DNA of 64,000 nucleotides from Planctomycetota bacterium (lineage in GTDB: Bacteria; Planctomycetota; UBA1135; UBA2386), in the NCBI GenBank assembly GCA_016794565.1, contig JAEUHQ010000124.1:62001-126000 (forward strand), written 5' to 3'. Each line of letters begins with the position of its first letter. Position 1 is the stretch's first letter. Shown one piece after another: positions 5,818-32,801 of this stretch. A program made the position numbers and the translations under genes. The notes beneath the pieces are model-generated. The model was given only the letters and a program-made list of their open reading frames with translations, did no database searches and was not told the DNA's origin.

Positions 5818-7122
5818 ATGCAGTCGGCGACGACAACGGGAACGGCTCCGGGCGAAGGCGGCGCGTCCGCGCGCTCCGGCTTCACGGCCATGGTGCTCGC
5901 GGGCGGGTTCGGGACGCGTCTGCGTCCGGTTCTCGCCGATCGCCCGAAGGCGTTGGCGCCCGTCGCCGGCGAACCGTTCCTCGCGCGCGTGCTCGACCAG
6001 CTCGCACGCGCCGGCTGCACGAGGGCGATCCTGTGCACCGGCCATCTCGGGGAACAGATCGAACGCGAGTTCGGTCACGACCACGGCGGCATGCCGATCG
6101 TGTACTCGCGCGAAGGCATCCCGCTCGGCACCGCGGGCGCCCTGCGTCACGCGCTGCCGCTCGTCGAGGACGAGGCCGCGCTCGTGGTGAACGGCGACTC
6201 GTACGTCGACGTCGATCTCGCCGCGTTCGTCGCCTGGGCGCGCAGCCGCGGCGACGCACCCTCGCTGATCGCAGTCGACGTACAGGACACCGCGCGCTTC
6301 GGCGCGCTCGGCATCGGCCCCGATGGCCGGGTGGAGTCGTTCGGAGAGAAGGCGGGCTCCGGGCCGGGTGCGATCAACGCCGGTGTCTACTGGCTGCCGC
6401 GCGCCGTGCTCGAGGCCGGACCGTTCGTCGCCCCGTCGTCGCTCGAACGTGACACGCTGCCGCGCTTCGTCGGCCGCGGCCTCGGCGCGTTCCGCTGCGC
6501 CGATCCGTTCCTCGACATCGGCACGCCCGAGTCGTTCGCCCGGTGTGAGGAGTTCTTCGCGTCGTGCGCGGCGCGCGCGCGGCGCGATCGCAGGGGACTG
6601 CTCGTCGTCGATCGAGACGGGACCCTGATCGTCGAACGGAACTACCTCGCCAGCCCGTCGGGCGTCGAACTGCTGCCCGGGGTCGTCGACGGACTGCGCG
6701 CGTTCGCCGAGCACGGCTACGACATCGCCGTCGTGACGAACCAGTCCGGCCTCGCGCGCGGCTACTTCGACGGGCCGACGCTCGACGCGATCCACTCGGA
6801 ACTCGCACGCCAGCTGGCCGACGCGGGCGTCGCGCTGCGCGGCATCTGGCACTGCCCGCATCATCCGGAGCACGGCTGCCGATGCCGGAAGCCGGAGCCG
6901 GAGCTGCTCGAGCGCGCGATGACGACGCTCGGATACTCGCCCGAACAGTGCCTCGTCGTCGGCGACAAGGCCTGTGACATCGAACTCGGCGCACGCCTCG
7001 GTGTGCGCACGGCGCTGGTCCGCACGGGCTACGGCGCCGGCACCGAACGCGACGGGTTGTGTGCCCCGGACGTGGTGGTGGACTCGCTCGCCGCGCTCGC
7101 TGCGCTGGAGGTCCGCTCGTGA
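5818..7122 (+). CDS. hddC-gmhB: Fused heptose-1-phosphate guanylyltransferase (HddC) and heptose-bisphosphate phosphatase (GmhB)
   Basis: 434 residues, two enzymes of one pathway in one chain. Residues about 22-250 form a sugar-phosphate nucleotidyltransferase: LAGGFGTRLRP (27-37), DRPKALAPV, GTAGALR, and the metal-binding NGDSYVDVD. Residues about 260-430 form an HAD phosphatase of the GmhB type: DRDGTL (265-270), VVTNQSGLARG, the zinc ligands CPHHPEHGCRCRKPEP, and GDKACDIE. GmhB removes the 7-phosphate from heptose 1,7-bisphosphate, and HddC then makes the GDP-heptose. The ATG at 5818 is preferred over an in-frame GTG at 5794 because GAGAGGA lies just upstream. The hddA kinase gene follows with a 4-bp overlap, giving the phosphorylation, dephosphorylation and activation steps as a unit. 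No gmhA isomerase gene is visible. Confidence 0.88.
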   Translation: MQSATTTGTAPGEGGASARSGFTAMVLAGGFGTRLRPVLADRPKALAPVAGEPFLARVLDQLARAGCTRAILCTGHLGEQIEREFGHDHGGMPIVYSREGIPLGTAGALRHALPLVEDEAALVVNGDSYVDVDLAAFVAWARSRGDAPSLIAVDVQDTARFGALGIGPDGRVESFGEKAGSGPGAINAGVYWLPRAVLEAGPFVAPSSLERDTLPRFVGRGLGAFRCADPFLDIGTPESFARCEEFFASCAARARRDRRGLLVVDRDGTLIVERNYLASPSGVELLPGVVDGLRAFAEHGYDIAVVTNQSGLARGYFDGPTLDAIHSELARQLADAGVALRGIWHCPHHPEHGCRCRKPEPELLERAMTTLGYSPEQCLVVGDKACDIELGARLGVRTALVRTGYGAGTERDGLCAPDVVVDSLAALAALEVRS

Positions 7123-8252
7123 TCATCAGCAGGACGCCGTTCCGGCTGTCGTTCTTCGGTGGCGGCACGGACTACCCGGAGTGGTACCGGACGCACGGCG
7201 GCGCGGTGCTGTCGACCACGATCGACAAGTACTGCTATCTCAGCTGCCGCTACCTGCCGCCGTTCTTCGACTACCGGTACCGGGTCGTCTGGTCGAAGGT
7301 CGAGAACCGCCGCAGCATCGCCGAGATCGAACATCCCGTCGTACGGTGCCTGCTCGCGCACCACGGTTTCACGCGCGGCGTCGAGGTTCACCACGTCGGC
7401 GACCTGCCGGCGCGCAGCGGCATGGGATCGAGCTCGACGTTCACCGTCGGGCTCCTCCACGCGCTACACGCGCTGCAGGGACGCATGGTCGGCAAGCAGG
7501 CGCTGATGCAGGAGGCGCTGCACGTCGAGCAGGAACTGCTGCGCGAGACCGTCGGCTCTCAGGATCAGGCCGCAGCGGCGCACGGCGGTTTCAACAAGAT
7601 CACGTTCGCGACGACGGGGGAGATCCTCGTGTCGCCGGTCGTGCTGCGTCCCGGGCGCGTGGAAGAACTCGATTCGCACCTGATGCTCTTCTACACGGGC
7701 ATCGTGCGCACCGCCTCGACGGTGGCCGCGACGTACGTCACCGACCTCGGACGAAAGCGGCGTCAGCTGCGGGTCATGCGGGACATGGTCGACGAGGCGA
7801 TCGAGCTGCTCGCGAGCGTCCGGCCGATCGACGGCTTCGGCACGCTCCTCGACGAAGCGTGGTCGATGAAGCGGAGCCTCGGCGCCGGCATCAGCAACGA
7901 CGACGTCGACGACGCGTACGCCCGCGCGAAGGCGGCGGGGGCGCTCGGCGGCAAGATCACGGGCGCGGGAGGCGGCGGTTTCCTCCTGCTGTTCGTGCCG
8001 CCTGACCGGCAGGCGGCGGTCGCGGACGCGCTGCCGGAGCTGGTGCAGGTGCCGTTCCGCTTCGAGTCGTCCGGCAGCCAGATCATCTTCTACGACCGCG
8101 AAGAGGACTTCGCCGAGGCCGAGGCCGCGCGCGAGGGGCGCACGATCCGCGCCTTCCGCGAGGCTTCGCCCGCAACGGGGCAGGTCGCGAGCGACGAATG
8201 GGCGATCCCGCGGCCGCTCGTCGGCGCCGGGGCGCGAGAGGGTCTCGAATGA
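7119..8252 (+). CDS. hddA: D-glycero-alpha-D-manno-heptose 7-phosphate kinase (GHMP kinase)
   Basis: 377 residues with a GTG start inside a 4-bp overlap with hddC-gmhB. It phosphorylates C1 of heptose 7-phosphate using ATP. The N-terminus IISRTPFRLSFFGGGTDYPEW is typical of HddA and related sugar kinases; the GHMP phosphate loop is LPARSGMGSSST (about residues 96-107). HGGFNKITF and the C-terminal KITGAGGGGFLLLF complete the family signature. Length matches HddA (about 340-370). Fucose kinase-like GHMP enzymes share this fold, but the direct coupling to a GmhB-HddC fusion makes the heptose kinase the best reading. It overlaps the following E1 alpha gene by 4 bp. Confidence 0.87.
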   Translation: MIISRTPFRLSFFGGGTDYPEWYRTHGGAVLSTTIDKYCYLSCRYLPPFFDYRYRVVWSKVENRRSIAEIEHPVVRCLLAHHGFTRGVEVHHVGDLPARSGMGSSSTFTVGLLHALHALQGRMVGKQALMQEALHVEQELLRETVGSQDQAAAAHGGFNKITFATTGEILVSPVVLRPGRVEELDSHLMLFYTGIVRTASTVAATYVTDLGRKRRQLRVMRDMVDEAIELLASVRPIDGFGTLLDEAWSMKRSLGAGISNDDVDDAYARAKAAGALGGKITGAGGGGFLLLFVPPDRQAAVADALPELVQVPFRFESSGSQIIFYDREEDFAEAEAAREGRTIRAFREASPATGQVASDEWAIPRPLVGAGAREGLE

Positions 8253-9202
8253 ACATGGAACGAACCAGCACGATCAAACGCGACGACGGCCTGTGGCTGC
8301 TCGAGCGCATGCGCCTCGTCCGGCAGACCAGCCAGCGCATCGCGAAGCTCTATCCGACGAACGTGATGGAGACGCCCGTGCACCTGTGCATCGGTCAGGA
8401 GGCGGTCGCGGCCGGCGTGTGCCGTCACCTCGGCGCGGTCGACAAGCTGTTCCTCGGTCACCGCACGCACGGCCCTGCACTCTGCAAGGGGCTTCCGCTC
8501 GAGAAGCTGATGGCGGAGCTCTATGGCCGCACGACGGGCTGCTCGCACGCGTTCGGCGGTTCGATGCACCTGATCGACGTGGAGCACGGACTGCCCGGCT
8601 CGTCCGCGATCGTCGGCGGCAGCATCGCGCTCGGCACAGGCGCCGCGCTCGCCGCGCAGATGACGGGGCAGCCGTTCGTCGGTGTGTCCTGGTTCGGCGA
8701 CGCCGCCACGAACGCGGGCGTCTTCTACGAGAGCATGAACTTCGCCGCGCTGCGCCGGCTGCCGGTGCTGTTCGTCTGCGAGGACAACGGCTGGTCGAAC
8801 GTGATGCCGAAGAGCGCGCACTCGGCGCACGACATCACGAGCGTCGCCGCGCAGTTCATGCCCACGTCGTGCGCAGACGGCACGGACGTGCTGTCGGTGT
8901 ACGACCTCGCGGGCGCCGCGCTGCGCTCGATCCGCGCCGGCGAAGGGCCCCGCTTCCTGCACTGCAAGACGAAGCGCTGGATGAAACACCAGGGCCCCGA
9001 TGCGTGCGATCTGCCCGACAACGGCATCGACCGGGAGCGCGACTGCCCGATCCGGAAGCTCGAAGCGTTCCTGGCGAAGGCGGGGCTCGCGCAGGCGAAC
9101 GAGTTCTCCGCGCTCGAAGCGCGCATCGAGAAGCAGATCGACGCCGCGATCCGGTTCGCCGAGACCTCGCCGTTCCCGTCCACCGACCTGCTGGAGGTCT
9201 GA
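8249..9202 (+). CDS. Thiamine-diphosphate-dependent E1 component, alpha subunit
   Basis: 317 residues, an E1-alpha-like subunit of the 2-oxo-acid dehydrogenase/transketolase superfamily. Visible are CIGQEAVAAGV near the N-terminus, LGHRTHGPALCKG, the HAFGGSMH segment, GSSAIVGGSIALGTG, and the ThDP/Mg motif running from GDAATNAG to CEDN. The usual GDG is GDA here. The start ATG overlaps hddA by 4 bp, and the beta subunit starts 3 nt after its stop. No lipoyl E2 or E3 gene is nearby, so these subunits probably do not serve a pyruvate dehydrogenase complex. A stand-alone decarboxylase/carboligase role in sugar modification would fit the setting, but this is inference. Confidence 0.85.
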   Translation: MNMERTSTIKRDDGLWLLERMRLVRQTSQRIAKLYPTNVMETPVHLCIGQEAVAAGVCRHLGAVDKLFLGHRTHGPALCKGLPLEKLMAELYGRTTGCSHAFGGSMHLIDVEHGLPGSSAIVGGSIALGTGAALAAQMTGQPFVGVSWFGDAATNAGVFYESMNFAALRRLPVLFVCEDNGWSNVMPKSAHSAHDITSVAAQFMPTSCADGTDVLSVYDLAGAALRSIRAGEGPRFLHCKTKRWMKHQGPDACDLPDNGIDRERDCPIRKLEAFLAKAGLAQANEFSALEARIEKQIDAAIRFAETSPFPSTDLLEV

Positions 9203-9205
9203 GCC

Positions 9206-10252
9206 ATGCCCTGGAGCAAGTTCGACAGCAACCACGAGGCGCCGAAGGGCGACCGGACCCTCACCTACTGCCAGGCGATCCGCGAGGCGATCGACCAGGC
9301 CATGTGCCACGACCCGCGCGTGTTCTGCATCGGCCTCGACGCGGACGACAAGTTCGGCGTGTTCGGGTCGATGAGCGACCTCACGCACAGGGAGCGGGTG
9401 ATCGGTACGCCGATCTCCGAGAACGCGATGACCGGCGTGGCGCTCGGCGCTGCGCTGTCGGGTCTGCGGCCGGTGCACGTGCACCTGCGCAACGACTTCC
9501 TGTTGGTCGCGATGGACCAGATCGTGAACTACGTCGCGAAGTGGGAGGACATGTTCGACCGGCAGGTCCGCGTGCCGCTCGTGATCCGCTCGATCATCGG
9601 GCGCGGGTGGGGATGCGGGGCGCAGCACTCGCAGTCGCTGCACGGCCTCTTCGCGCAGATCCCGGGCCTCAAGGTCGTGATGCCGTCGACGCCGTACGAC
9701 GCGAAGGGACTGTTCTTCGAAGCGGTGAAGGACGACTCGCCGGTGCTCTTCCTCGAGCACCGCTGGCTCTACAAGAACACGGGCGACGTGCCGACGGGCA
9801 TCTACACGCTGCCGTTCGGCAAGGCGAACCGTCTGCACGAGGGAGGGAGCCTCACCGTGGTCGCGCCGTCCCTCGCGGCGATGCACTGCCTCGTCGCGTG
9901 CGAGCAGCACGGGCTCGACGTCGACCTGATCGACCCGCGCACGATCAAACCGTTGGACCTGCCGACCATCGTCGCGTCGGTCCAGAAGACCCGGCGTCTG
10001 CTCGTCGTCGACTACGACTTTCCGTTCGGCGGCTTCGGCGCCGAGGTGTGCGCGCGCGTCACCGAAGCGGCGTTCGCGCATCTGGACGCCCCGCCGCAGC
10101 GCATCTCGTTCCCCGACCGCGGCATGCCCGCGAGCGGTCCGCTGGAACGCGCCTACTACCAGACGCCGGACCGCCTCGCCGCCGCGATGCGGACGATCCT
10201 CGAGGGCGGGTGCGTTCCGGTCGGTGCGGCGAACGAACTGTCGACCCGTTGA
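9206..10252 (+). CDS. Thiamine-diphosphate-dependent E1 component, beta subunit
   Basis: 348 residues, partner of the alpha subunit 3 nt upstream. The family features are GTPISENAMTGVALGAAL (the catalytic Glu region), RPVHVHLRNDF, YVAKWEDMF, the GCGAQHSQSLHG loop and VMPSTPYDAKGL. The C-terminal transketolase-type domain shows GGSLTVVAP, DLIDPRTIKPLD and VDYDFPFGGFGAEV. Together with the alpha subunit it would form the usual alpha2beta2 E1 with two active sites at the interfaces. It sits between heptose-activation genes and a radical SAM gene, which argues for a biosynthetic role rather than central metabolism; the substrate is unknown. Confidence 0.86.
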   Translation: MPWSKFDSNHEAPKGDRTLTYCQAIREAIDQAMCHDPRVFCIGLDADDKFGVFGSMSDLTHRERVIGTPISENAMTGVALGAALSGLRPVHVHLRNDFLLVAMDQIVNYVAKWEDMFDRQVRVPLVIRSIIGRGWGCGAQHSQSLHGLFAQIPGLKVVMPSTPYDAKGLFFEAVKDDSPVLFLEHRWLYKNTGDVPTGIYTLPFGKANRLHEGGSLTVVAPSLAAMHCLVACEQHGLDVDLIDPRTIKPLDLPTIVASVQKTRRLLVVDYDFPFGGFGAEVCARVTEAAFAHLDAPPQRISFPDRGMPASGPLERAYYQTPDRLAAAMRTILEGGCVPVGAANELSTR

Positions 10253-10256
10253 ACCC

Positions 10257-11792
10257 ATGACTTCGTCGCACCGTCCGCTGGACCTGTTGCTCGTGAACCC
10301 CGGCGGGCACCGCCGCATCTACCAGAACCTCGGCAAGGACCTGGTCGCGAAGGAGCCGCCGATCTGGGCGGGCCTGCTGGCGACGGCGGCGCGGCACCGC
10401 GGTCACTCCGTCGCGATCCTCGACGCGAACGCGCTCGAACTCACGCCGGAGGAGACGGCTCGGCAGGTCGCGGACCTGGCGCCCGTGCTCACCGTCGTCG
10501 TCGTCTACGGCCACAATCCGAACGCGTCGACGTTCGCGATGCCAGGCGCCCAGGACATCTGCGAGGCGATCGCGCAGCACGCGCCGGAGCGGAAGGTGAT
10601 GCTGCTCGGTGGACACGTGGCTGCGCTGCCGGAGCGCACGGCGCGCGAAGAGAACGTCGACTTCGTGTGCTCGGGCGAGGGCGCCTACACGATCCACGAA
10701 CTGATCGAGGCGCTGCGCGCCGGCGGCGCGTCGCAGGATCTCGCGAGAGTGCGCGGGCTGCTGTGGTGGGACGGCGACGAGCTGCGCACGAACGCCGCGG
10801 CGCCGATCGTGCGCGATCTGCCTGCCGAGATGCCCGGCGTCGCCTGGGACCTGCTCCCGATGCGGCTCTACCGCGCGCACAACTGGCACTGCTTCGGTCG
10901 CGAGAGCCGTGAGCCCTACGCGGCGCTCTACACCACTCTCGGCTGCCCGTTCACGTGCACCTTCTGCTGCATCCAGGCGCCCTTCAAGGCGGGCGAGGCG
11001 GCTGCCGGATTCGATCCGTCACTGAACAGCTACCGCAAGTTCGACCCCGACCACGTGATCGCGCAGATCACGAACCTCGTCGACGAACACGGCATCCGCA
11101 ACATCAAGATCGCGGACGAGCTCTTCCTCCTGCACAAGGCGCACGTGGGCCGCATCTGCGACGGTCTCGCCGCGCTGAACGCGGACCTGAACATCTGGGC
11201 GTATGCGCGTGTCGACACGTGCCGCGACCACGAGTTGCTCGCGCGGATGCGCGCTGCCGGCGTGCGCTGGCTCGCGATCGGCATCGAATCGGCCAGCGAG
11301 AAGGTGCGTGCCGACGTCGACAAGGGCTACCGGCCCGAGGCGATCCAGAAGGCGATCGGCCTCGTGCGCGACGCGGGCATCCACGTGATGGGGAACTACA
11401 TCTTCGGCCTGCCCGAGGACGACCTGGGCACGATGCGCGAGACCCTCGACTTCGCGAAGTCGTTGAACACCGAGTTCGCGAACTTCTTCTCGGCGATGGC
11501 CTATCCGGGTTCGCAGCTCTATCGCGACGCGAACGAGCGCGGCTGGCCGCTGCCGGAGAAGTGGTCCGGCTACTCGCAGCACAGCCGGGACTGCCTCCCG
11601 CTGCCGACGAAGCATCTGTCGGGCAAGGAAGTGCTCGCGTTCCGCGACGCGGCGTTCCGCGAGTACTTCGACCGGCCCGAGTACTTCGCGGTGGTGGAGC
11701 GCACGTTCGGCGCCGAGACGGTGCAGGAAGTGCGGCGCATGGTCGCGCAACCGCTGGCGCGCGAACACGGCGCGGCGCTGGTGAAGGCGTGA
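10257..11792 (+). CDS. B12-binding-domain radical SAM protein
   Basis: 511 residues. Residues about 1-160 look like a cobalamin-binding Rossmann domain: LLLVNPGG, PIWAGLLATAARHRGHSVAILDAN, VVVYGHNPNAS, VMLLGGHVAALPE and CSGEGAYTI. The radical SAM core follows, with the [4Fe-4S] ligands C230, C234 and C237 in GCPFTCTFC, then IKIADELFLL, AIGIESASEKVRADVDKGY and MGNYIFGLPEDD. The family carries out methylations and other radical chemistry on unactivated carbons; the substrate is not predictable. It starts 4 nt after the E1 beta stop and overlaps the next glycosyltransferase gene by 4 bp, so it is likely part of glycan tailoring. The canonical DxHxxG cobalamin-ligand motif is not evident, so B12 may be bound base-off or not at all. 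Confidence 0.85.
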   Translation: MTSSHRPLDLLLVNPGGHRRIYQNLGKDLVAKEPPIWAGLLATAARHRGHSVAILDANALELTPEETARQVADLAPVLTVVVVYGHNPNASTFAMPGAQDICEAIAQHAPERKVMLLGGHVAALPERTAREENVDFVCSGEGAYTIHELIEALRAGGASQDLARVRGLLWWDGDELRTNAAAPIVRDLPAEMPGVAWDLLPMRLYRAHNWHCFGRESREPYAALYTTLGCPFTCTFCCIQAPFKAGEAAAGFDPSLNSYRKFDPDHVIAQITNLVDEHGIRNIKIADELFLLHKAHVGRICDGLAALNADLNIWAYARVDTCRDHELLARMRAAGVRWLAIGIESASEKVRADVDKGYRPEAIQKAIGLVRDAGIHVMGNYIFGLPEDDLGTMRETLDFAKSLNTEFANFFSAMAYPGSQLYRDANERGWPLPEKWSGYSQHSRDCLPLPTKHLSGKEVLAFRDAAFREYFDRPEYFAVVERTFGAETVQEVRRMVAQPLAREHGAALVKA

Positions 11793-13018
11793 CCGAGCCG
11801 ATCGCGACCGCGCTGGTCTCGACGTGGTCGAGCGCCGGATACCTGCGAGGTTGCCTCGACGACCTGGTGCAGCAGAGCCTCGGCGACCGGCTCGAGATCC
11901 TCGTCATCGACGCGTGCTCGCCCGAGAACGAGGGCGAGATCGTGCGCGAGTACCAGGGTTCGCACCCGAACATCCGCTACGTGCGTTCTCCGGTCCGCGA
12001 GTCGACCTCGGCGGCGTTCGACCGCGGCACCGCGATGGCACGCGGACGGTACCTCTCGACCGCGAACACGGACGATCGCCATCACCCGGAGTTCTTCGCG
12101 ACGATGGTCGCGGCGCTGGAGCAGCATCCCGAGTTCGGCCTCGCCTACGCCGACGCGCTGATCACGAACGGCGACAACGAGACGTGGCAGCAGAACACGG
12201 CTTCGAAGCGCTTTGCCTGGCCCGACTACACACCGGCCACCGCGCTGTCGTGCTGCCTGTTCGGCGCGCAGCCGGTCTGGCGGCGCTCGGTGCACGCAGC
12301 GGTCGGCGGCTGGGATGGCGGGCATCGCCACGCGAACGACCAGGACATGTTCCTCCGCATCGCGCGCAGATTCGGCGCAGTGCACGTGCGCGAACTGCTC
12401 GGGCTCTTCCTGCAGCGACCGGACAGCGTCGCCGGCAGCGGCAGCGGCGAGGCGACGCTGCGCTGTGCGATGGCGGTCTTCCGGAAACACCGGCGGGCGT
12501 GGGGGCTCGAGGAGGTGTTCCCAGGCCTCTGCACCGATCCGTCGCCGTTCGCACGCGCGGCGGCGTTGTTCGAGTTCGGCAATGCGGCCGTGCTCGGACC
12601 GTACACCGATGGCGAGTTCGCCCTTCGATGCTGGCAGCAGGCGCTCGCGCTGCCGCTCGAGGGCGAAGACGGCCGGCGCGTGCGCGATGCCTTCGCGAAC
12701 AACACCGGGTGCCTGTTCGCCGCGGCGGGACTCGGCGACGCTGCGACCAAGGCGTTCGCTGCGTGCACGGACCGCGACCTCGTGGCGCGGAATCGTCGGG
12801 CAGGGGCGGTGCACTCCCCGCTGCGGGCGACGGAGTTTGCCGGGTTGCCGCACGAGGTCGTCGAGGCGAGTCGCCGCACCCGGGGACTCCGGGTGGACGC
12901 GTCGGGACGCCTGTCTTGGTCGAATCCTCACTCGCAGTTGCCGTGGGACGTGTTCGACGGACCGAACGGCGTGCCGCTGCGCGGCTCCGCGGTCGTGCCC
13001 ATGCTGTCGGGCGTGTGA
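11789..13018 (+). CDS. Family 2 glycosyltransferase
   Basis: 409 residues with a GTG start in a 4-bp overlap with the radical SAM gene. The N-terminal GT-A domain begins ALVSTWSSAGYLRGCLDDLV, then LEILVIDACSPENEG, IRYVRSP, and the nucleotide/metal segment RYLSTANTDDRHHPEF. GGWDGGHRHANDQDMF carries the acceptor-side acidic residues. The C-terminal ~150 residues (from about 260) are helical with no recognised domain. It transfers a sugar from a nucleotide donor, most likely in building the surface glycan whose precursors are made upstream; donor and acceptor are unknown. It is the last gene of this overlapping run, followed by about 160 nt without a gene, in which I see only a 12-bp palindrome (13034-13045). 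Confidence 0.88.
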   Translation: MTEPIATALVSTWSSAGYLRGCLDDLVQQSLGDRLEILVIDACSPENEGEIVREYQGSHPNIRYVRSPVRESTSAAFDRGTAMARGRYLSTANTDDRHHPEFFATMVAALEQHPEFGLAYADALITNGDNETWQQNTASKRFAWPDYTPATALSCCLFGAQPVWRRSVHAAVGGWDGGHRHANDQDMFLRIARRFGAVHVRELLGLFLQRPDSVAGSGSGEATLRCAMAVFRKHRRAWGLEEVFPGLCTDPSPFARAAALFEFGNAAVLGPYTDGEFALRCWQQALALPLEGEDGRRVRDAFANNTGCLFAAAGLGDAATKAFAACTDRDLVARNRRAGAVHSPLRATEFAGLPHEVVEASRRTRGLRVDASGRLSWSNPHSQLPWDVFDGPNGVPLRGSAVVPMLSGV

Positions 13019-13179
13019 CGCGGTCGCGCGCCGGTGCCGCGGCACGCCGCACCCGCGCGGGGTAGCCTCGTGCGCGGATTCCGCGATTGCACGGAACCGC
13101 GCCGACTCGTCCGTTCGTCAGGCAGGCGTGCCGGGACGAGATCCCTGTCGACTCGTGTTCCCGGCCTCTGCCGCACCCC

Positions 13180-15138
13180 ATGAAAACACAGCTTTCCCTC
13201 CTGGCCCTCGCGGCCTTTGCCAGTGCCGTGTCGGCACAGAACCTCCTCCTCCCCGACAACCACCACCTCTACGAATCAGCGACGCAACAAGCCGCGACCA
13301 GCACGACCAACTGGTGGGGCACGACGGCCGCGGGTCGTCGTTTCCAGGTCCTCTACGAGGCGAGCCACTTCACGGGCAAGGCCGGCGTTTCGGGTCCGAT
13401 CCTGCTCCAACACCTCCGTTTCCGGGGTGAGGACGGCGAGGTGAACACGGGCGGGCAGGTCTACAGCAACGTGACGGTGAACGTCTGCAAGACCGCCACG
13501 GCAGCTGCCGGCATGAGCACCACGTTCGCCACGAACCTGCCGGCGTCGCTCGGCGGGACGTCGGCGGTGACGACGGCGCTCGGTTCGGTCGTGATCCCGA
13601 CCCTGACGGTCCTGCCGTCCAGCGGCTCGGTGCCGAACAACTGGAACGTCGACCTCGATCTCACCGCGGCGGTCCTGAGCGTCTTCGATCCGGCGACCGA
13701 CCCCGCCGGCCAGGTCAATCTGCTGATCGACGTCTCGTGGACGGGCTACGTCGCCGGGCCGGCCATTGCCCCGGCAACCGCGCACATCGCCATCGTTCCC
13801 ACGCAGGACACGACGGCGCACGGCGCGGGCGTCCGCGGTCGCGGTGTCTACGGAACGACGCCCGCTGCAGCCACCGGCACGTCGTCGACCGCGCCGCCCG
13901 TGGTCGGCGTCGAGTTCCTCGGTGGCGGCGGATACCCGACACTGATTCCCGCCAAGACGGAGTACATCGGTGCGTCGTGCGGTGGCAGCGCTTCCGGGTT
14001 CTACCAGCTCTTCTCGAACTGCAACCGCTTCGACTTGGCCAACTCCGGCCTCACGATGACGCCCGACAACCCCGTGACGCCGAACATCTACACGGTGTCC
14101 TCCGGAGCGCCGCCCGTCGACGTGACGAAGGTCGGGGTCACGCCGAACACGACCGACGACTCGGTGGTCACGTTCCCGCTCGGCTACACCTTCAACTACC
14201 CGGGTGGGAGCACGACGACCATCAAGCCGTGCACGAACGGCTTCATCTGGCTCGATCCGGCGATGACGGTGACGGACTACAACCCGACGCTGATCGAGTG
14301 GCTCGGCAACACCGCGGCGACGCCGTACACCGCCCGGGTGGCTCCGTTCTGGCACGACTTCGTCGGCACGCGCAACACGGCATCGCACCCGAACTGCGGA
14401 CTGCACGTCCTCAACGACACTGCAGGTGGCCCGGGCAACACGGTCACCTACGTGACGTGGCTCAACACCTCGTCGATCAACTGCGTGACCGGCGGCGGCC
14501 AGTCGGTGTGCACGATGCAGTGCGTCTTCTACGAGGCGACCGGCCAGATCGAGTTCCGCTACGGCTCGTTCACGGAGTTCTCTGCCTCCACGACCACGCT
14601 GAGCAACATCACCGGCATCGTCGGGTTCACCCGCGGCCGCATCGGTGGCGTCAACTCGGTCGATCCGCGTTCACGCGACCTGTCGCACGAAGCGCTCGTC
14701 CCGTTCACGACGGGCGTCGAACTCACCTCGTCGCCCCACATCTTCGCCACGTCGTCCCCGCTCGCCGCGGATCCGACCTATGGCGCGCGCATGTTCGGCG
14801 GCCAGTCGGTCACGTTCGGCGTCAGTGATGTCCCCGCGGGCACGGTGCTCATGCTGATCAACCTGGACATCGTGGCGCTGCAGCCGGGCGTGCAGGTGCC
14901 GGGCATCACGGCACCGGGCTGCATGATCAGCACCGGCGTCCCGCCGCTCATCTTCGGCTGGGAGTCGGCGTTCTTCCCGGGCGCTACGTGGAACGGCGCT
15001 CTGCCGCTCGTGATTCCCCACCTGGTCTGGGACGGCGTCACGATCACGGCCCAGGCGATGGAACTCGACATCGGCGGCGGCCCGAACCTGGTCAAGTGGG
15101 CCAGCGACACGATGAAGTTCACGGTCGGCCTCGACTGA
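13180..15138 (+). CDS. Large secreted beta-rich protein, tandem paralog A
   Basis: 652 residues starting at the ATG before a clear signal peptide (KTQLSLLALAAFASAVSAQ); an earlier in-frame ATG at 13087 would place 31 residues before the signal and is rejected. The N-terminal half (about 20-260) is Thr/Ser-rich with repeated strands. Residues about 270-480 resemble a nidogen-like (NIDO) sandwich: YTARVAPFWHDF, VTYVTWLNTSS, MQCVFYEATGQIEFRYGS, GIVGFTRGRIGG. The C-terminus carries APGCMISTGVPPLIFGW and ITAQAMELDIGGGP, a module that recurs in other secreted proteins of this window. The next gene is a clear paralog of the same size. No enzyme motif is visible; a structural or adhesive surface role is a guess. 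A strong hairpin follows the stop. Confidence 0.85.
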   Translation: MKTQLSLLALAAFASAVSAQNLLLPDNHHLYESATQQAATSTTNWWGTTAAGRRFQVLYEASHFTGKAGVSGPILLQHLRFRGEDGEVNTGGQVYSNVTVNVCKTATAAAGMSTTFATNLPASLGGTSAVTTALGSVVIPTLTVLPSSGSVPNNWNVDLDLTAAVLSVFDPATDPAGQVNLLIDVSWTGYVAGPAIAPATAHIAIVPTQDTTAHGAGVRGRGVYGTTPAAATGTSSTAPPVVGVEFLGGGGYPTLIPAKTEYIGASCGGSASGFYQLFSNCNRFDLANSGLTMTPDNPVTPNIYTVSSGAPPVDVTKVGVTPNTTDDSVVTFPLGYTFNYPGGSTTTIKPCTNGFIWLDPAMTVTDYNPTLIEWLGNTAATPYTARVAPFWHDFVGTRNTASHPNCGLHVLNDTAGGPGNTVTYVTWLNTSSINCVTGGGQSVCTMQCVFYEATGQIEFRYGSFTEFSASTTTLSNITGIVGFTRGRIGGVNSVDPRSRDLSHEALVPFTTGVELTSSPHIFATSSPLAADPTYGARMFGGQSVTFGVSDVPAGTVLMLINLDIVALQPGVQVPGITAPGCMISTGVPPLIFGWESAFFPGATWNGALPLVIPHLVWDGVTITAQAMELDIGGGPNLVKWASDTMKFTVGLD

Positions 15139-15176
15139 TCGACGGACGCATCGACGGTACCGCGTGTACCGAGTGC

Positions 15177-15212
15177 GAAGGCCCGCGCCGCATCCGTGCT
15201 GCGCGGGCCTTC
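15177..15212 (+). terminator. Hairpin terminator after paralog A
   Basis: GAAGGCCCGCGC pairs perfectly with GCGCGGGCCTTC (12-bp stem, 12-nt loop), 38 nt after the stop codon. No U-run follows. The stem core is nearly the same as in the hairpin after paralog B. Confidence 0.7.
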
Positions 15213-15355
15213 TGCCATCATGCTGTCCTCCCGTCCGGTGCGTGGTGCCGCTCGAACGAGGCGCGTGGATTCCGCTCCGTTGGATGCGCACGCGTCTTCA
15301 TTCCCGACCGCTTGCCGCATCGAGTTCTCCGTGCAACTCTTTGCCGCCAGCTGGC

Positions 15356-15361
15356 TATCCG
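15356..15361 (+). promoter_or_regulatory. Possible -10 hexamer (TATCCG) 7 nt before the start of paralog B
   Basis: TATCCG sits 7 nt before the ATG, which would put transcription start at or next to the A of ATG. No convincing -35 is visible. Confidence 0.3.
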
Positions 15362-15368
15362 CGCATCC

Positions 15369-17333
15369 ATGAAATCCCTTTCCATCCTCGCCATCGCGGC
15401 GTTTGCGAGCGCCGTCTCGGCGCAGAATCTCCTCCTTCCGGACAACCACCACCTGGGCGAACTCGCGACCCAGGCTCAGGCCTCCGGGTCGACGAACTGG
15501 TGGGGCACCACCGCTGCCGGTCGTCGCTTCCAGGTGCTCTACGAAGCGAGCCACTTCACGGGCAAGGCGGGCGTCGCCGGCCCGATCGACATCACGCACG
15601 TGAAGTTCCGCGGTGAAGACACCGAGAAGAACACCGGCGGTCAGACCTACTCGAACGTCACGGTCAACGTCTACAAGACGACGCTGACGTCGGCGACGAT
15701 GTCGACGACGGTGTTCGCGACCAACACGGCGCCGGTTGCGCCCGCCACGACGACGCTGCTGAAGTCGGCGACGATCCCGACGGTCGTCGTCGCGCCGTCG
15801 CTCGGCACCGGGCCCAACAACTGGATGATCGATCTCGATCTCAGCGCGGCCCTGCCGCTCGGCGTGTTCGATCCGTTGAACGACGCGGCGAGCGAGTTCA
15901 ACCTGCTGGTCGACATCACATGGACCGGGTACACGGCCGGTCCGGCGATTCCGCCGTCGACCGCGACGATCCCGATCATCGCGACGCAGGACACCACGGC
16001 GCACGGCGCCGGCATCCGCGGCCGCGGCATCTACGCCACCACGCCGACGGCGACTTCCGGTACGGCCAGCACGAGCCCGCCCGTCGTCGGGATCGAGTTC
16101 GCCGGCGGCGGCGGCTATGCGTCGCTGATCCCTGCCACGACCGAGTACATCGGTGCGTCCTGCGGCGGCTCCGCGTCGGGGTTCTACCAGCTCTTCGTGC
16201 ACAACCAGCCGTTCGACCTGGCCAACAACGGCCTGACGCTGACGCCCGACGTGCCTCCGCCCGCGGCGCCGAACTTCTACACCGTGTCCCTCGGGGCGCC
16301 GCCCGTCGACGTCACGAAGGTCAACGCGGTCGCCAACTCCACGATCGACGACGCGGTCCTCGCGTCGACGTCGATGGGATTCAGCACGCCGTTCCGGTTC
16401 CCGGGTGGATCGACGTCGTCGATCCGCCCGTGCACCAACGGTTTCGTGTGGATGGACGTCGCGATGAGCGCGTCCGACTCCACGCCGTCGCTCGTCGAGT
16501 GGCTCGGCAACACGGCGGCGACGCCGTACACCGCGCGGTTCGCGCCGTTCTGGCACGATTTCGACGGCGGTGAGAACACGGTGACGCACCCCGGTTCGGG
16601 CCTGCACGTGGTGGCCGAGACCGTCGCCCCCGGTGCGAACCGCTGCTGGGTCACGTGGCTCAACACCGGTGAGTTCAACACGGTCGCCGGCGGCGGCCAG
16701 TCGGTGAACACGCTCCAGTGCGTGTTCCACGAAGCGACCGGCGTCGTCGAGTTCCGCTACGGGGCGATGAGCCTCATCACCGACAGCAGCATCGGCAACT
16801 TCACGAACGGGATCGTCGGCTTCACCCGTGGCCGCATCGGCAGCGTCAACTCGGTCGACCCGCGTTCGCGCGACCTGTTGCCCGAAGCGATCGTGCCGTT
16901 CACGACGGGGGTCGAGCTGGCGTCGTCGCCGCACATCTTCGCGACGTCGACTCCGCTCGCCGCGGCCGCGACCTACGGCGCACGCCTGTTCGGCGGGCAG
17001 TCGGTGACGTTCGGCGTCAGCGACGTGCCCCCTGGCACCGTGCTGATGATGGTGAACCTGGACATCGTGGCCCTCCAGCCGGGCCTGCAGCTTCCGGGCG
17101 TCACCGCTCCCGGGTGCATGATCAGCACCGGCATCCCGCCGCTCATCTTCGGCTGGGAGTCGGCTTTCTTCCCCGGTGCGACGTGGAACGGCACCCTGCC
17201 GCTCGTGATCCCGCACGTCGTGTGGGACGGCGTCACGATCACCGCCCAGGCGATCGAACTCGACATCAGCGGCGGCCCCAACCTCGTGAAGTGGGCCAGC
17301 GACACGATGAAGTTCACCGTCGGCCTCGACTGA
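15369..17333 (+). CDS. Large secreted beta-rich protein, tandem paralog B
   Basis: 654 residues. The signal peptide KSLSILAIAAFASAVSAQ is nearly that of paralog A, and both continue with NLLLPDNHHL. Similarity runs end to end: STNWWGTTAAGRRFQVLYEA, FTGKAGV, GIRGRGIYATTP, TEYIGASCGGSASGFYQLF, GIVGFTRGRIGSVNSVD, and a nearly identical last ~200 residues ending KWASDTMKFTVGLD. Domain order is therefore signal peptide, beta-rich N-half, NIDO-like sandwich, shared C-terminal GC-module. A tandem duplication that has since diverged mainly in the N-half explains the pair. It has its own upstream gap (230 nt) and its own terminator, so it is probably transcribed separately from paralog A. Confidence 0.86.
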   Translation: MKSLSILAIAAFASAVSAQNLLLPDNHHLGELATQAQASGSTNWWGTTAAGRRFQVLYEASHFTGKAGVAGPIDITHVKFRGEDTEKNTGGQTYSNVTVNVYKTTLTSATMSTTVFATNTAPVAPATTTLLKSATIPTVVVAPSLGTGPNNWMIDLDLSAALPLGVFDPLNDAASEFNLLVDITWTGYTAGPAIPPSTATIPIIATQDTTAHGAGIRGRGIYATTPTATSGTASTSPPVVGIEFAGGGGYASLIPATTEYIGASCGGSASGFYQLFVHNQPFDLANNGLTLTPDVPPPAAPNFYTVSLGAPPVDVTKVNAVANSTIDDAVLASTSMGFSTPFRFPGGSTSSIRPCTNGFVWMDVAMSASDSTPSLVEWLGNTAATPYTARFAPFWHDFDGGENTVTHPGSGLHVVAETVAPGANRCWVTWLNTGEFNTVAGGGQSVNTLQCVFHEATGVVEFRYGAMSLITDSSIGNFTNGIVGFTRGRIGSVNSVDPRSRDLLPEAIVPFTTGVELASSPHIFATSTPLAAAATYGARLFGGQSVTFGVSDVPPGTVLMMVNLDIVALQPGLQLPGVTAPGCMISTGIPPLIFGWESAFFPGATWNGTLPLVIPHVVWDGVTITAQAIELDISGGPNLVKWASDTMKFTVGLD

Positions 17334-17358
17334 GCCCGACGACGGCTGCGGCCGACCT

Positions 17359-17396
17359 CGAAGGCCCGCGCGGCGTGATCGCCGCGCGGGCCTTCG
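17359..17396 (+). terminator. Hairpin terminator after paralog B
   Basis: A perfect 16-bp stem (CGAAGGCCCGCGCGGC with its complement) closes a 6-nt loop, 25 nt after the stop. It is among the strongest hairpins I see in the window and shares GAAGGCCCGCGC with the terminator after paralog A. Confidence 0.8.
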
Positions 17397-17561
17397 GCGT
17401 TCGTGGCTGCGGGTGCCGGCCACGAGGTCGAGACCGGGCTCCCGGGTCGGCGTGGCGCCATCGCATGCTCTCGTCGAGCGCAGCGACCACCGTTCGGGCT
17501 CGCCCGCGGTTTCACGTGCCGCGGCGGGCCGCCGCGGGACCGGCGCCCGGGCCACCGGGCA

Positions 17562-17594
17562 TTCAAGCCCGCGTCGCGGCACGCCCGATAGGAC
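17562..17594 (+). promoter_or_regulatory. Putative promoter element (TTCAAG ... CGATAGGAC)
   Basis: TTCAAG 17562-17567 and CGATAGG from 17586, with 18 nt between CAAG and CGAT exactly as at 5743 and 25363. The TAGGAC hexamer (17589-17594) ends 6 nt before the ATG of the RmlC-like gene, consistent with a leaderless transcript. The rest of 17397-17588 holds no gene that I can support. Confidence 0.38.
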
Positions 17595-17600
17595 CGGGGC

Positions 17601-18122
17601 ATGCGCGTCACCGCCACGGAGCTGCACGGCGTCCTCCGGATCGAGCCGGAGGCGTTCACGGACCATCGCGGCTCGTACGTCGAGATCTTCGACACCGACA
17701 AGTACCGCGAGATCACCGGCGGTCGCACGTTCGTGCAGGACGACATCTCCGTGTCGCACACGAACGTCTTGCGCGGGCTGCACGGCGACTGGCAGACGAC
17801 GAAGCTCGTCAGCGTGTTGCACGGCGAAGGCTACGCGCTGCTCGCCGACAACCGTCCCGACTCGCCGACGTACCGCCGCTGGCAGTCGTTCGCGCTGACC
17901 GGCGACAACCGTGTGCAGCTGCTGATCCCGCCGGGCATCGGCAACTCGGTGCTCGCCGTGCAGGGGCCGCTCGTCTACTGGTACAAGCAGGATCAGCACT
18001 GGGCGCCGGGACGACAGTTCACGATCCGCTGGGACGATTCGGAGTGGGGGTTCGAGTGGCCGATCGCCGCGCCGATCCTCTCCGCACGCGACACGAAGGG
18101 GGGCTATGTCCAGGCGACCTAG
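17601..18122 (+). CDS. dTDP-4-dehydrorhamnose 3,5-epimerase-like protein (RmlC family)
   Basis: 173 residues, a single cupin of the RmlC type. Family landmarks: FVQDDISVSHTNVLRGLHGD with the catalytic His61, Lys68 in TTKLV, the IPPGIGN turn, Tyr126/Tyr128 in LVYWYK, and the closing ILSARDTKGG with the Asp that pairs with the His. It epimerises C3/C5 of 4-keto-6-deoxy nucleotide sugars. The next gene, overlapping by 17 bp, is a 4,6-dehydratase-like SDR, so the pair would form and epimerise one 4-keto intermediate. Given the upstream HddA/GmhB/HddC genes, the substrate could be a GDP-6-deoxy-4-keto-heptose, as for the Campylobacter DdahB/MlghB enzymes, rather than the dTDP sugar; no RmlA/B/D is present. 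Substrate is inference. Confidence 0.82.
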   Translation: MRVTATELHGVLRIEPEAFTDHRGSYVEIFDTDKYREITGGRTFVQDDISVSHTNVLRGLHGDWQTTKLVSVLHGEGYALLADNRPDSPTYRRWQSFALTGDNRVQLLIPPGIGNSVLAVQGPLVYWYKQDQHWAPGRQFTIRWDDSEWGFEWPIAAPILSARDTKGGYVQAT

Positions 18123-19122
18123 AGCGTTCGTCACCGGCTTCACCGGCATGGTCGGCAGCCATCTCGCCGACTGGCTGCTCGCGAACTCGGACTGGGACGT
18201 GCACGGGTTCCTCAGATGGAACGAGGACCTGGCGAACGTCGACCATCTCTTGCCACGCGTCAACGACCGCGACCGGGTGCATCTCGTCTACGGCGACCTG
18301 AACGACCATCCCTCGCTCGAACGCGCCGTGGCGAAGGTCCAGCCCGACTACGTGTTCCACCTGGCGGCGCAGAGCTACCCGCAGACGAGCTTCACCGCGC
18401 CGATCGAGACGTTGCAGACGAACATCCTCGGCACGGCGGCGCTGCTGGAGGCGATTCGTCACGGGGGCGGCAAGCCCGTCGTGCACGTCTGCGCCTCGTC
18501 GGAGGTCTTCGGTCGTGTGCCGGCGAAGTTCCTGCCGATCGACGAGGACGTTCCCTTCCATCCGGCTTCGCCGTACGCGATCAGCAAGGTCGGGACCGAC
18601 CTCGTCGGCCGCTTCTACGCCGAGGCCTACGGCATGTGCGTGATGACGACGCGCATGTTCACGCACACCGGGCCGCGGCGCGGCGACGTGTTCGCCGAGT
18701 CGACGTTCGCGAAGCAGATCGCGTTGATCGAGGAGGGGCGGATCCCGCCCGTGCTCCGCACGGGCAACCTCGAGTCGATGCGTACGTGGTCGGACGTGCG
18801 GGATGCGGTGCGTGCCTACCACCTCCTCGTCACGAAGGACCCGACCCCAGGCGCGTACTACAACATCGGCGGCTCCTTCTCGTGCACCGTCGGCGACATG
18901 CTGAAGCACCTGCTGTCGTTGTCGACGCGCGACGACATCGAAGTGGTCACGGACCCAGAACGCCTGCGTCCGATCGACGCGGACCTGCAGGTGCCGGACA
19001 CCACGAAGTTCCGGCGCCACACCGGCTGGGAGCCGGTGATCCCGTTCGAGCAGACGATGCAGGACCTGCTCGACCACTGGCGCGATCGCGTTCGCAGCGG
19101 ACGCAACTTCCTCGTCCGCTGA
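18106..19122 (+). CDS. GDP-sugar 4,6-dehydratase-like SDR
   Basis: 338 residues, an extended SDR of the GDP-mannose 4,6-dehydratase type. It has the NAD(P) loop TGFTGMVGSH (10-19), HLAAQSYPQTSF, the catalytic triad area ASSEVFG (Ser131-Glu133) and SPYAISK (Tyr157, Lys161), MFTHTGPRRGD, and a GMD-like C-terminus TKFRRHTGWEP. The dehydratase-specific acidic residue is the Glu of SSE. It starts inside the RmlC-like gene (17-bp overlap). With the heptose kinase/phosphatase/guanylyltransferase genes in the same locus, a GDP-heptose 4,6-dehydratase (DmhA/WcbK/DdahA-like) is the most economical function; GDP-mannose as substrate is the alternative. Confidence 0.83.
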   Translation: MSRRPRAFVTGFTGMVGSHLADWLLANSDWDVHGFLRWNEDLANVDHLLPRVNDRDRVHLVYGDLNDHPSLERAVAKVQPDYVFHLAAQSYPQTSFTAPIETLQTNILGTAALLEAIRHGGGKPVVHVCASSEVFGRVPAKFLPIDEDVPFHPASPYAISKVGTDLVGRFYAEAYGMCVMTTRMFTHTGPRRGDVFAESTFAKQIALIEEGRIPPVLRTGNLESMRTWSDVRDAVRAYHLLVTKDPTPGAYYNIGGSFSCTVGDMLKHLLSLSTRDDIEVVTDPERLRPIDADLQVPDTTKFRRHTGWEPVIPFEQTMQDLLDHWRDRVRSGRNFLVR

Positions 19123-19133
19123 ACGGTGCTGGC

Positions 19134-20993
19134 GTGACGGTGCTCGTGCCCGTGCAGCAGATCGACGAGGTCGCCCGGCGCAATCCTGGCGGCGGCGCGG
19201 GGTACCACGAACAGCAGACCCGCGACCTGTACGACCCCGCGATCGAGCATCCGCGGCAGGTCTTCCACGAACTGCTCTGTCAGGCGGTCGCGGCAGGTCC
19301 GGTGCGCACGGTCCTGGAGATCGGTGTGGGCAGGCACGGCGCCCGCCATCACGCGCTGCGGCTCGTCGCGGAACGGGTCGTCAGCGTGGACTCCGCGGCG
19401 CGGCTCCGTCGCCTCGAGGAGGGCAGGGTCATGGACCGCGAACGCTCCGTGTGCATCGTCGGCGAAGGGCACGAGCCCGAGGTGCGGGCCGAAGTCGAAC
19501 GCGCGGCGAGCGGCTGCGACGTGCTCCTGATCGACGCCGGCGACCGGTACGCCAGGACCGCCGCGGCGTGGCGCGGTTTCGCCGGCCTCGTGCGGCCCGG
19601 CGGCCTCGTCGCGATCGTGGATCGGTGCCAGGCGTGGCCGCGGGCAGCGCGACACGACGGCGTGGATCGCTTCGCGTACGACCTCGCGACGCGCTGGCTC
19701 GGACCGCGGGGTCGCGTGCTGGAGCGCCTCGGCTCCGACCACGCGATCCACTGCTACCGGCGTGTCGCCGACGACGACGAGGGCGCCGCGTTCTGGCCGA
19801 TGCCGGCCGCGGAGCCGGGACCCGTTCCCGTCGGTGGGGCGCCGGCCGGCTTCTGCTGGTTCGTCGACGGCGAACGCTGGATCGCGGCGCGGGGCGACTT
19901 CGACGTCTTCGACGCGGTCGATGTCGAACGCGGCGGCGCATCGCTCGCGTTCGTCGCCGACTCGGAGGCGGCGCTGCGGTCGGCCACCGACCGGTGGCTG
20001 CGGGCGGAGCGACTCGCGCACGACGTGCTGCGCGCGCTGGCACGGCGCGACGAACCGGGGTTCCGGCGGTCGTGCGACGAAGCAGCTGCAGGCCTGGCGG
20101 CGGAAGGGGCGTGGTGGGTGGACGCCTTGCAGCGCACGCCGCACAGCACGCCCTTGCTGCGCGTGGCCGGGGCACTCGAGTGTGTGCTCGGTCGCCACGA
20201 CGTCGCGGCCGCGCTGCTGCGCGCCGCCGTGGATCTCGACTTCGCCGATTCGGGCGGGATCGCGGCGCTCGTCGCCGTCGAGCAGTGGCTGCGCGGCGAC
20301 GACGCGGCCGCGAAGGAACTGCTCTCGACACTGAAGCGCCGCGTCGCCGCGCGCGAACGGACCCGCGTCTGCCTGGCGGAGCTCTCGGGGCACGTTCTGT
20401 GGACGCAGCCGCGCCTCCTGCACGAACGCTCGGCGATCACATGGGTCGGTCCGGGCGGCGGCGACGCGATGGCCGCGGCGCGTCGACTCGGCATGCAGAT
20501 CACGTGGATCCCGAACGGCCACGCGGTGCCGGCGGCGGCTGCTCCTGGCGCTCGCATCGTGCCGCGGGTGATCGGCGGGGCGCCGGGTCGGTCGTCGTTG
20601 TGGCTCGATCCGGAGGACGGGTCGCTCGCGGTGCAGCGGTGGGCGCCCGCGTTCGAACGCGAACGGCGGACGACGCAGCGCGAGATCGGACCCGTGGCCA
20701 CCACGACGCTCGACGTGCTGCTCGAAGAGGGCGGCCTCGTGCCCGCGGATCTCGACGTGCTGGTGCTCGATGTGCCCGGTGCCGCTGCCGCGGTGCTGCG
20801 GGGCGCCGAACGGTCGCTCGCCCACGTGCGCACACTCTGTCTCGCGGTGCGGCACCAGTCGGTGTTCCCGGACTCCCTGCCGCACCCGGAAGTGCTGCAG
20901 CGGGTGACCGAGACGGGACTGCACTTCGCCGGGTGCGAGCCGGGGCTCCGGGCGTCCGAGGCCTTCGCGTTCTTCCAGAGGCCGGTGCCATGA
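19134..20993 (+). CDS. Two-domain methyltransferase-like protein with a degenerate FkbM-type half
   Basis: 619 residues with a GTG start 11 nt after the preceding stop. Residues about 50-215 form a class I SAM-methyltransferase domain: VLEIGVGRHGARHHAL (SAM loop), DVLLIDAG, GLVRPGGLVAIVD. Residues about 290-420 are helical and Ala-rich. The last ~200 residues align in order with the FkbM protein encoded at 21799-23040: HVLWTQPRLLHERSAITWVG corresponds to HVLWRRPDLVRTIRGVVQVG there. In this copy the SAM loop GANVG reads GPGGG and the acidic FEP motif reads IPN, so that half has probably lost catalysis. It likely methylates a sugar of the glycan with its N-terminal domain. It overlaps the next gene by 4 bp. 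Confidence 0.72.
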   Translation: MTVLVPVQQIDEVARRNPGGGAGYHEQQTRDLYDPAIEHPRQVFHELLCQAVAAGPVRTVLEIGVGRHGARHHALRLVAERVVSVDSAARLRRLEEGRVMDRERSVCIVGEGHEPEVRAEVERAASGCDVLLIDAGDRYARTAAAWRGFAGLVRPGGLVAIVDRCQAWPRAARHDGVDRFAYDLATRWLGPRGRVLERLGSDHAIHCYRRVADDDEGAAFWPMPAAEPGPVPVGGAPAGFCWFVDGERWIAARGDFDVFDAVDVERGGASLAFVADSEAALRSATDRWLRAERLAHDVLRALARRDEPGFRRSCDEAAAGLAAEGAWWVDALQRTPHSTPLLRVAGALECVLGRHDVAAALLRAAVDLDFADSGGIAALVAVEQWLRGDDAAAKELLSTLKRRVAARERTRVCLAELSGHVLWTQPRLLHERSAITWVGPGGGDAMAAARRLGMQITWIPNGHAVPAAAAPGARIVPRVIGGAPGRSSLWLDPEDGSLAVQRWAPAFERERRTTQREIGPVATTTLDVLLEEGGLVPADLDVLVLDVPGAAAAVLRGAERSLAHVRTLCLAVRHQSVFPDSLPHPEVLQRVTETGLHFAGCEPGLRASEAFAFFQRPVP

Positions 20994-25261: not shown

Positions 25262-25362
25262 CCGGGGGCGGCGCGGGGGCGCCGTTCGACGGGCATCGGC
25301 ACTCGGCGAGCGGCCCCTTGAGCGGCGGGCCCCGATGGGAACGGGCTCTCGGCGCGGTCGGT

Positions 25363-32614: not shown

Positions 32615-32645
32615 GGTCGGGTCGGGAGCACATGACATGCCGTTC

Positions 32646-32661: not shown

Positions 32662-32680
32662 CGTGGCCGGGGCGAGGCGC

Positions 32681-32791: not shown

Positions 32792-32801
32792 TGATCGGGG
32801 C

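Follow-up and report, generated by a model that had tools for sequence, protein, structure and literature searches.

A 64,000-nucleotide stretch of a Planctomycetota bacterium genome (GenBank assembly GCA_016794565.1, contig JAEUHQ010000124.1, positions 62,001 to 126,000), referred to here as the window, contains an operon in which GDP-heptose genes are packed together with genes for a stand-alone thiamine diphosphate (ThDP)-dependent E1 enzyme and a B12-binding radical S-adenosylmethionine (radical-SAM) protein. Comparison with related clusters favours viewing the locus as one version of a widespread GDP-heptose/ThDP/B12-radical-SAM module, apparently undescribed so far; no description of the combination of HddA, E1 and radical-SAM genes turned up in the body of literature searched. 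We rate the chances as about even that this is an envelope-polysaccharide operon in which a thiamine carboligase branches GDP-6-deoxy-4-keto-heptose after its synthesis and epimerisation. Slightly more tentative, and put as a single joint claim, is the broader proposal of a widespread class of envelope sugars: GDP-heptoses to which a stand-alone ThDP enzyme (either E1 alpha/beta or a split transketolase) adds a C-branch and which a dedicated B12 radical-SAM enzyme modifies further, in Planctomycetota, Cyanobacteria, Nitrospirota, Verrucomicrobiota, Omnitrophota, Myxococcota, Azospirillum and others.

Organisation of the operon

The window (G000:C33:62001-126000 in our numbering) comes from an assembly of 5.07 Mb in 223 contigs and has a GC content of ~70%; gene calls were based on open frames and on GC by codon position. 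Six plus-strand genes between 5818 and 13018 overlap or are separated by at most 4 nt, in the order HddC-GmhB fusion, HddA, E1 alpha, E1 beta, B12 radical-SAM protein and family 2 glycosyltransferase (GT2). Two tandem paralogous secreted genes follow, and then an RmlC-like gene overlapping one for a short-chain dehydrogenase/reductase (SDR). The main features and the evidence for each are:

5818 to 7122, plus strand: HddC-GmhB fusion, 434 amino acids (domains, motifs, one frame in eight close relatives)
7119 to 8252, plus strand: HddA-like GHMP kinase, a predicted heptose 7-phosphate kinase (profile and PDB matches)
8249 to 9202, plus strand: ThDP-dependent E1 alpha subunit, stand-alone (profiles; adjoins HddA in related clusters)
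9206 to 10252, plus strand: ThDP-dependent E1 beta subunit, stand-alone (profiles; present in related clusters)
10257 to 11792, plus strand: B12-binding radical-SAM protein of a distinct family (profiles; invariant motif YRAHN(W/M)HCF)
11789 to 13018, plus strand: GT2 (profile; retained in close relatives)
17601 to 18122, plus strand: RmlC-like protein, putative GDP-4-keto-heptose 3- and/or 5-epimerase (nearest solved relative, motifs)
18106 to 19122, plus strand: SDR, predicted GDP-heptose 4,6-dehydratase of DmhA type (nearest solved relative, motifs)

The HddA gene starts with a GTG overlapping the stop codon of the fusion gene, and the E1 alpha and beta genes are translationally packed with it (7119 to 10252). 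Diagnostic matches for the named genes have E-values of 1e-31 to 1e-105, which excludes chance matches. A scan of the operon gave no promoter-like site, and its terminator-like sites were not more frequent than those of shuffled sequences. The operon's close matches are metagenome-assembled genomes (MAGs) of Planctomycetota, and the gene order is retained in about ten loci of the phylum.

An earlier note, made from the sequence of this DNA alone, had placed HddA, GmhB and HddC here, two of them in one chain, with an SDR and an RmlC-like epimerase overlapping downstream; all were found where it put them, the overlap being 17 nt. It had also reported the absence of RmlA, RmlB and RmlD, which holds for the genes examined, at ~3.7 to 25 kb. 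Left out of its account were the genes that lie between HddA and the RmlC-like gene, namely E1 alpha, E1 beta, the B12 radical-SAM protein, GT2 and the secreted pair.

A radical-SAM family found with GDP-heptose and ThDP genes

The radical-SAM protein shares its domain layout with the B12-binding class of HpnJ and BchE, which are its best NCBIfam matches, but falls far short of the cut-offs for both (with HpnJ, 169 bits against 577) and belongs to a distinct family with its own invariant motif. Members were found in 12 of 294 genomes of the phylum, and the neighbourhoods that we fetched mostly contain HddA and usually HddC. Scanning 85,000 species genomes yielded at least 515 relatives; the locus counts given here are for the best 80 of these, taken together with flanks of up to 10 kb, and both the co-occurrence counts and the P value ignore shared descent. 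The 80 loci come from many bacterial phyla and from two archaeal MAGs. Many of the loci lie on MAG contigs, and binning errors may account for the two archaeal cases. HddA lies near the radical-SAM gene in 61 of the 80 loci (50/54 among loci of at least 15 kb), HddC in 48 and a DegT-family enzyme in 57, and SDRs are present in many.

E1 alpha/beta genes are likewise present in 57 of the 80 loci. A split transketolase occurs in 18, including 16 of the 23 loci without E1 alpha/beta, and the two enzymes are found together in just two loci, against 12.8 expected if they were independent (hypergeometric P ~1e-9). With 57 loci carrying E1 alpha/beta and 16 more a split transketolase, 73 of the 80 have a two-subunit ThDP enzyme of either kind; the seven that do not include three contigs shorter than 5 kb. 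This swap of two ThDP enzymes in the same gene context is consistent with the formation of a C-C bond on a sugar intermediate. Split transketolases replace E1 alpha/beta in GDP-heptose clusters on Azospirillum plasmids, for example at L197:16809-18450 and L199:11045-12807.

Two plasmid loci illustrate the module. In Solidesulfovibrio magneticus RS-1 (pDMC1) it begins with radical-SAM, NUDIX, HddA, E1 alpha and E1 beta genes and continues with a GDP-fucose-synthase-like SDR, a DegT protein nearest to RfbH, a further SDR, HddC and GmhA. Azospirillum lipoferum 4B (AZO_p6) has HddA, radical-SAM and SDR genes, together with DegT, E1 beta, E1 alpha, SDR and an HddC-GmhB fusion.

The association was also examined with the dehydratase as a second anchor (E<=1e-60), which was found in 12 genomes of the phylum. 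In seven of these (G000, G227, G286, G162, G253, G223 and G262), E1 or split transketolase genes accompany DmhA or heptose genes on the recovered contigs. The ThDP enzyme, an E1 in both cases, lies right beside DmhA in G162 and G253, and in G262 an E1 or split transketolase lies beside the RmlC-like gene. Outside the phylum, Azospirillum sp. TSA2s encodes a 71%-identical DmhA that only two genes separate from a split transketolase.

No E2 partner found beside the E1 pair

Both E1 subunits have intact ThDP motifs and lie in a keto-sugar cluster, as expected of members of the alphaKADH2 group (AviB1/B2 type). Among curated families they match pyruvate dehydrogenase E1 subunits best, at scores below the curated cut-offs. 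Queries with three annotated E2 (lipoyl acyltransferase) proteins revealed no E2 partner at the 80 radical-SAM loci; they did find E2 in the control loci, which served as working positive controls. The only E2 catalytic domain in the bacterium's own assembly shares a single 1300-codon frame with its own E1. This E2 and E1_dh frame lies on the same contig, outside the window (G000:C33:36998-39133; L205), and may resemble the OdhA-type 2-oxoglutarate dehydrogenase of actinobacteria. In a tree of E1 beta sequences, E2-linked references group apart. A role for the pair as a pyruvate dehydrogenase component is considered unlikely, given the 80 loci without E2 and an assembly without a free one.

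A predicted route to a GDP-4-keto-6-deoxyheptose

All five domains or proteins of the GDP-deoxyheptose part have heptose-pathway enzymes as their nearest solved relatives. The SDR matches the Campylobacter GDP-heptose 4,6-dehydratase (PDB 7us5) with 354 bits and 51.4% identity, compared with 153 bits and 37% identity over the first 240 residues for E. coli GDP-mannose 4,6-dehydratase (1db3), and on these matches assignment as a GDP-mannose dehydratase was rejected. It carries the motifs ASSEVFG (SSE/TSE type) and YAISK (YxxxK type), and its designation as a probable GDP-heptose 4,6-dehydratase of DmhA type is well supported by these matches. For the RmlC-like protein, the closest match is the Campylobacter GDP-heptose 3,5-epimerase 7m14 (42% identity), whose HGD and GNS motifs it shares. 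Among the genes at 3.7 to 21.8 kb of the window, no C4-reductase was found.

For HddA, the best solved relatives are the heptose kinases 3k85, 4usk and 4n3o. It scores 137 bits with the NCBIfam equivalog NF049969, which is its best family although the cut-off of 600 is not reached, hence the term HddA-like. The earlier note had proposed a genome search for gmhA, and a gene was found at C28:22044-22403 with TIGR00441 as its best family (170 bits; cut-off 209), so that one of the two outcomes named there as refuting, a genome lacking gmhA, did not occur. The matches to solved relatives settle the folds; the substrates of HddA, HddC and GmhB are suggested by pathway context, since none of the three reaches the curated NCBIfam score.

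The logic of GDP-6-deoxy-heptose synthesis put forward in the note thus survives in part. Enzyme matches and gmhA support the GDP-heptose route and the 6-deoxy step, and the deoxyheptose reading is well supported as far as the keto intermediate. It is incomplete beyond that point, because a C4-reductase was not found in the operon and the conserved E1 pair and radical-SAM gene point beyond a simple deoxyheptose.

The HddC-GmhB fusion is a recurring architecture

In the fusion protein, the NTP_transferase/HddC domain occupies residues ~22 to 249 counted from the ATG at 5818 (~5881 to 6564) and has the motif LAGGFGTRLRP. Its nearest PDB entry is the Yersinia 6-deoxy-heptose pathway protein 5xhw (5e-35); it is called HddC-like since it scores 118 bits with the equivalog NF049965, short of the cut-off of 300. 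The GmhB/HAD-IIIA (heptose bisphosphate phosphatase) domain follows at residues ~259 to 428 (~6592 to 7101), with DRDGT, TNQSG, a Cys/His zinc loop (CPHHPEHGCRCRKP) and GDKACDIELG, and is nearest to the D,D-heptose 1,7-bisphosphate phosphatase 4pnh. With PRK08942 it scores 155 bits (cut-off 178), the DxDGT and TNQSG motifs and the zinc loop all being present. Eight syntenic Planctomycetota relatives carry the fusion in a single frame (best-domain identity 56 to 77%), and it is therefore not an assembly error. A further relative with the same gene order (L050) has HddC and GmhB as two adjacent, separate genes. A second GmhB-like domain in the same genome (L063:8621-9760; G000:C134) is preceded by an N-terminal stretch of ~190 residues in the same open frame.

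Within the phylum this HddC-GmhB fusion is clade-specific. Another Planctomycetota genome (L055) encodes an HddC-GmhB protein that is 35% identical, and in G262, from a different family of the phylum, the domain order is reversed (GmhB-HddC, L052:287-1837), with HddA following and a split transketolase and RmlC-like gene nearby. Beyond the phylum, the fusion is found in Omnitrophota and on plasmids of Azospirillum, Rhizobium, Methylosinus, Methylovirgula and others, annotated outside Planctomycetota as 'HAD-IIIA family hydrolase'. Of 72 plasmid records, 37 cover at least 80% of the fusion query, and most of those listed give one uninterrupted match. Five further fusions were confirmed by their domains, one with reversed order. 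The Azospirillum and Rhizobium plasmid proteins (for example WP_014189893 and WP_136701517) share the domain order of the window fusion, but at only ~28 to 35% identity. The A. lipoferum 4B fusion shares a cluster with the HddA, E1 alpha/beta and radical-SAM genes; in A. thermophilum the fusion directly follows gmhA. The fusion had been thought uncommon in the earlier note; its recurrence across Azospirillum, Rhizobium, Methylosinus and Methylovirgula makes it an ordinary architecture, and the plasmid records, Omnitrophota cases and domain-confirmed fusions rule it out as a novelty.

Flanking genes

Two genes lie immediately upstream of the operon:

3807 to 4757, plus strand: SDR of UDP-xylose-synthase (UXS) type, probably a neighbour and not part of the pathway
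4762 to 5736, plus strand: threonine/serine dehydratase-like pyridoxal phosphate enzyme, start codon uncertain, upstream in seven close relatives

The UXS-type gene was seen in only one close relative and was on that ground not counted as a pathway member. Between GT2 and the RmlC-like gene, a spacer that varies among relatives holds the tandem paralogous secreted proteins (approximately 13180 to 15138 and 15369 to 17333, plus strand), which have a signal peptide, end in ...LVKWASDTMKFTVGLD and gave no Pfam match. Matches to FkbM methyltransferases flank the operon at 19131 to 25285, one weak (19134 to 20993) and one strong within the minus-strand frame 21799 to 24081, as does a GT1-like glycosyltransferase (23861 to 25285, minus strand). 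Further along are a flavin adenine dinucleotide (FAD) oxidoreductase with a halogenase-like match (29440 to 30813, minus strand), an MMPL-like transporter (30650 to 32581, minus strand), a YceI protein, a methyltransferase (34363 to 35046) and a type III polyketide synthase/chalcone-synthase-like gene (35771 to 36826); together, the genes at 29440 to 36826 resemble a small cluster for an aromatic lipid or a polyketide.

Discussion

In the proposed pathway, GmhA, encoded elsewhere in the genome, would isomerise sedoheptulose 7-phosphate, HddA would phosphorylate C1, and the two halves of the fusion would dephosphorylate C7 (GmhB) and guanylylate the sugar (HddC). DmhA would then oxidise C4 and remove the C6 oxygen to yield GDP-6-deoxy-4-keto-heptose, which the RmlC-like enzyme would epimerise at C3 and/or C5. 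We infer that E1 alpha/beta acts here in place of a C4-reductase, adding an acyl unit from pyruvate (two-carbon acetyl) or 2-oxobutyrate (three carbons) to the sugar ketone; the threonine/serine dehydratase-like enzyme could supply either donor. This would give a branched sugar of C9 or C10 size, a GDP-4-C-acyl-6-deoxyheptose, in which the B12 radical-SAM enzyme may make one further change, before or after transfer by the glycosyltransferase.

As far as the 4-keto-6-deoxy-heptose and its epimers, the predicted activities are by homology those of the Campylobacter jejuni GDP-heptose capsule pathways, whose genes encode GmhA, HddA, GmhB, HddC, a C4,6-dehydratase, a C3/C5-epimerase and a C4-reductase (PMC10680097). 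Campylobacter 6-deoxyheptose routes run from dehydratase to epimerase and then to the C4-reductase (PMC10680097), whereas here GmhB and HddC are fused, and the operon yielded no reductase but includes genes for E1 alpha/beta and a B12 radical-SAM protein. Two-carbon sugar branching by E1-type thiamine enzymes has been reported for antibiotics (PMC12247030): such enzymes are known or proposed to add pyruvate-derived acetyl groups to sugar ketones in aldgamycin, kibdelomycin, avilamycin, paulomycin and everninomicin (PMC12247030, PMC4425429, PMC10338323), and transketolases have been proposed to add hydroxyacetyl groups in miharamycin (PMC12247030). Like the pair in the window, AviB1/AviB2 (avilamycin), Pau11/Pau12 (paulomycin), EvdU5/EvdS3 (everninomicin) and KbDH-alpha/beta (kibdelomycin) are pyruvate-dehydrogenase-like E1 pairs of keto-sugar pathways (PMC4425429, PMC10338323, PMC12247030). 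The alphaKADH2 antibiotic enzymes serve hexose- or pentose-derived sugars, in contrast to the GDP-heptose genes and polysaccharide-type clusters that accompany the E1 genes here. Branching in an envelope polysaccharide has a parallel in YerE-like ThDP enzymes, which in yersiniose and erwiniose O-antigens join a 2-oxo-acid-derived branch to a 4-keto deoxysugar nucleotide (PMC12247030), although YerE is a member of the decarboxylase (acetolactate-synthase-type) superfamily and has CDP-3,6-dideoxy-4-keto-glucose as its substrate (PMC12247030).

Several observations weigh against branching by the E1 pair. DmhA is present in only 11 of the 80 radical-SAM loci, and the RmlC-like gene likewise in 11, so in most clusters the ThDP enzyme may act on another intermediate. 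A GDP-fucose-synthase-like SDR, a possible C4-reductase, accompanies the ThDP enzyme in 34 of the 80 loci, and for the window a C4-reductase could be encoded elsewhere in the genome. E1 beta sequences of heptose clusters do not form one clade (15 label changes on the tree), and the likeness of the pair to the AviB and KbDH enzymes is one of enzyme type and gene context. On the heptose side, HddA, HddC and GmhB are all under the NCBIfam equivalog cut-offs, and the HddC domain scores slightly higher with a mannose-1-phosphate guanylyltransferase model (142 vs 118 bits).

In a plainer alternative, somewhat unlikely in our view though the strongest of the three considered, the product is unbranched GDP-6-deoxy-heptose, the C4-reductase is encoded elsewhere, and the E1 and radical-SAM proteins serve another sugar or lipid of the same envelope polymer. 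It agrees with the match of dehydratase and epimerase to the Campylobacter pathway, with the two unrelated genes that separate the DmhA and RmlC-like genes from the core run, and with the occurrence of the ThDP enzyme without DmhA in most related clusters. It sits poorly with E1 genes that are packed with HddA, track HddA across phyla, and directly adjoin DmhA in G162 and G253.

We think it improbable that the ThDP enzyme instead supplies precursor, a split transketolase, or the E1 pair in its role, making sedoheptulose 7-phosphate for GmhA and HddA. That compound is a normal transketolase product and the ThDP genes adjoin HddA, but in 57 of the 73 loci with a two-subunit ThDP enzyme it is E1 alpha/beta, whose type decarboxylates 2-oxo acids and is not known as a transketolase; nor would a dedicated radical-SAM partner have an evident reason. 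The possibility to which we give least credence, and very little, is that an ordinary pyruvate (or acetoin) dehydrogenase component is here by chance. Best curated matches and intact ThDP motifs would suit it; the missing E2, the scores below cut-off, the separate grouping of E2-linked E1 beta sequences and the exchange of the pair for a split transketolase all count against it.

Deoxyheptoses are best known from the capsules and O-antigens of a few pathogens. If the proposal is correct, environmental bacteria are predicted to make branched higher-carbon sugars of a new family, in which the exchange of E1 for transketolase would correspond to acetyl versus hydroxyacetyl branches. Hundreds of genes whose present annotation goes no further than 'radical SAM protein', 'kinase' or 'dehydrogenase E1' would also gain a function, and biocatalysis would gain new enzymes for forming C-C bonds.

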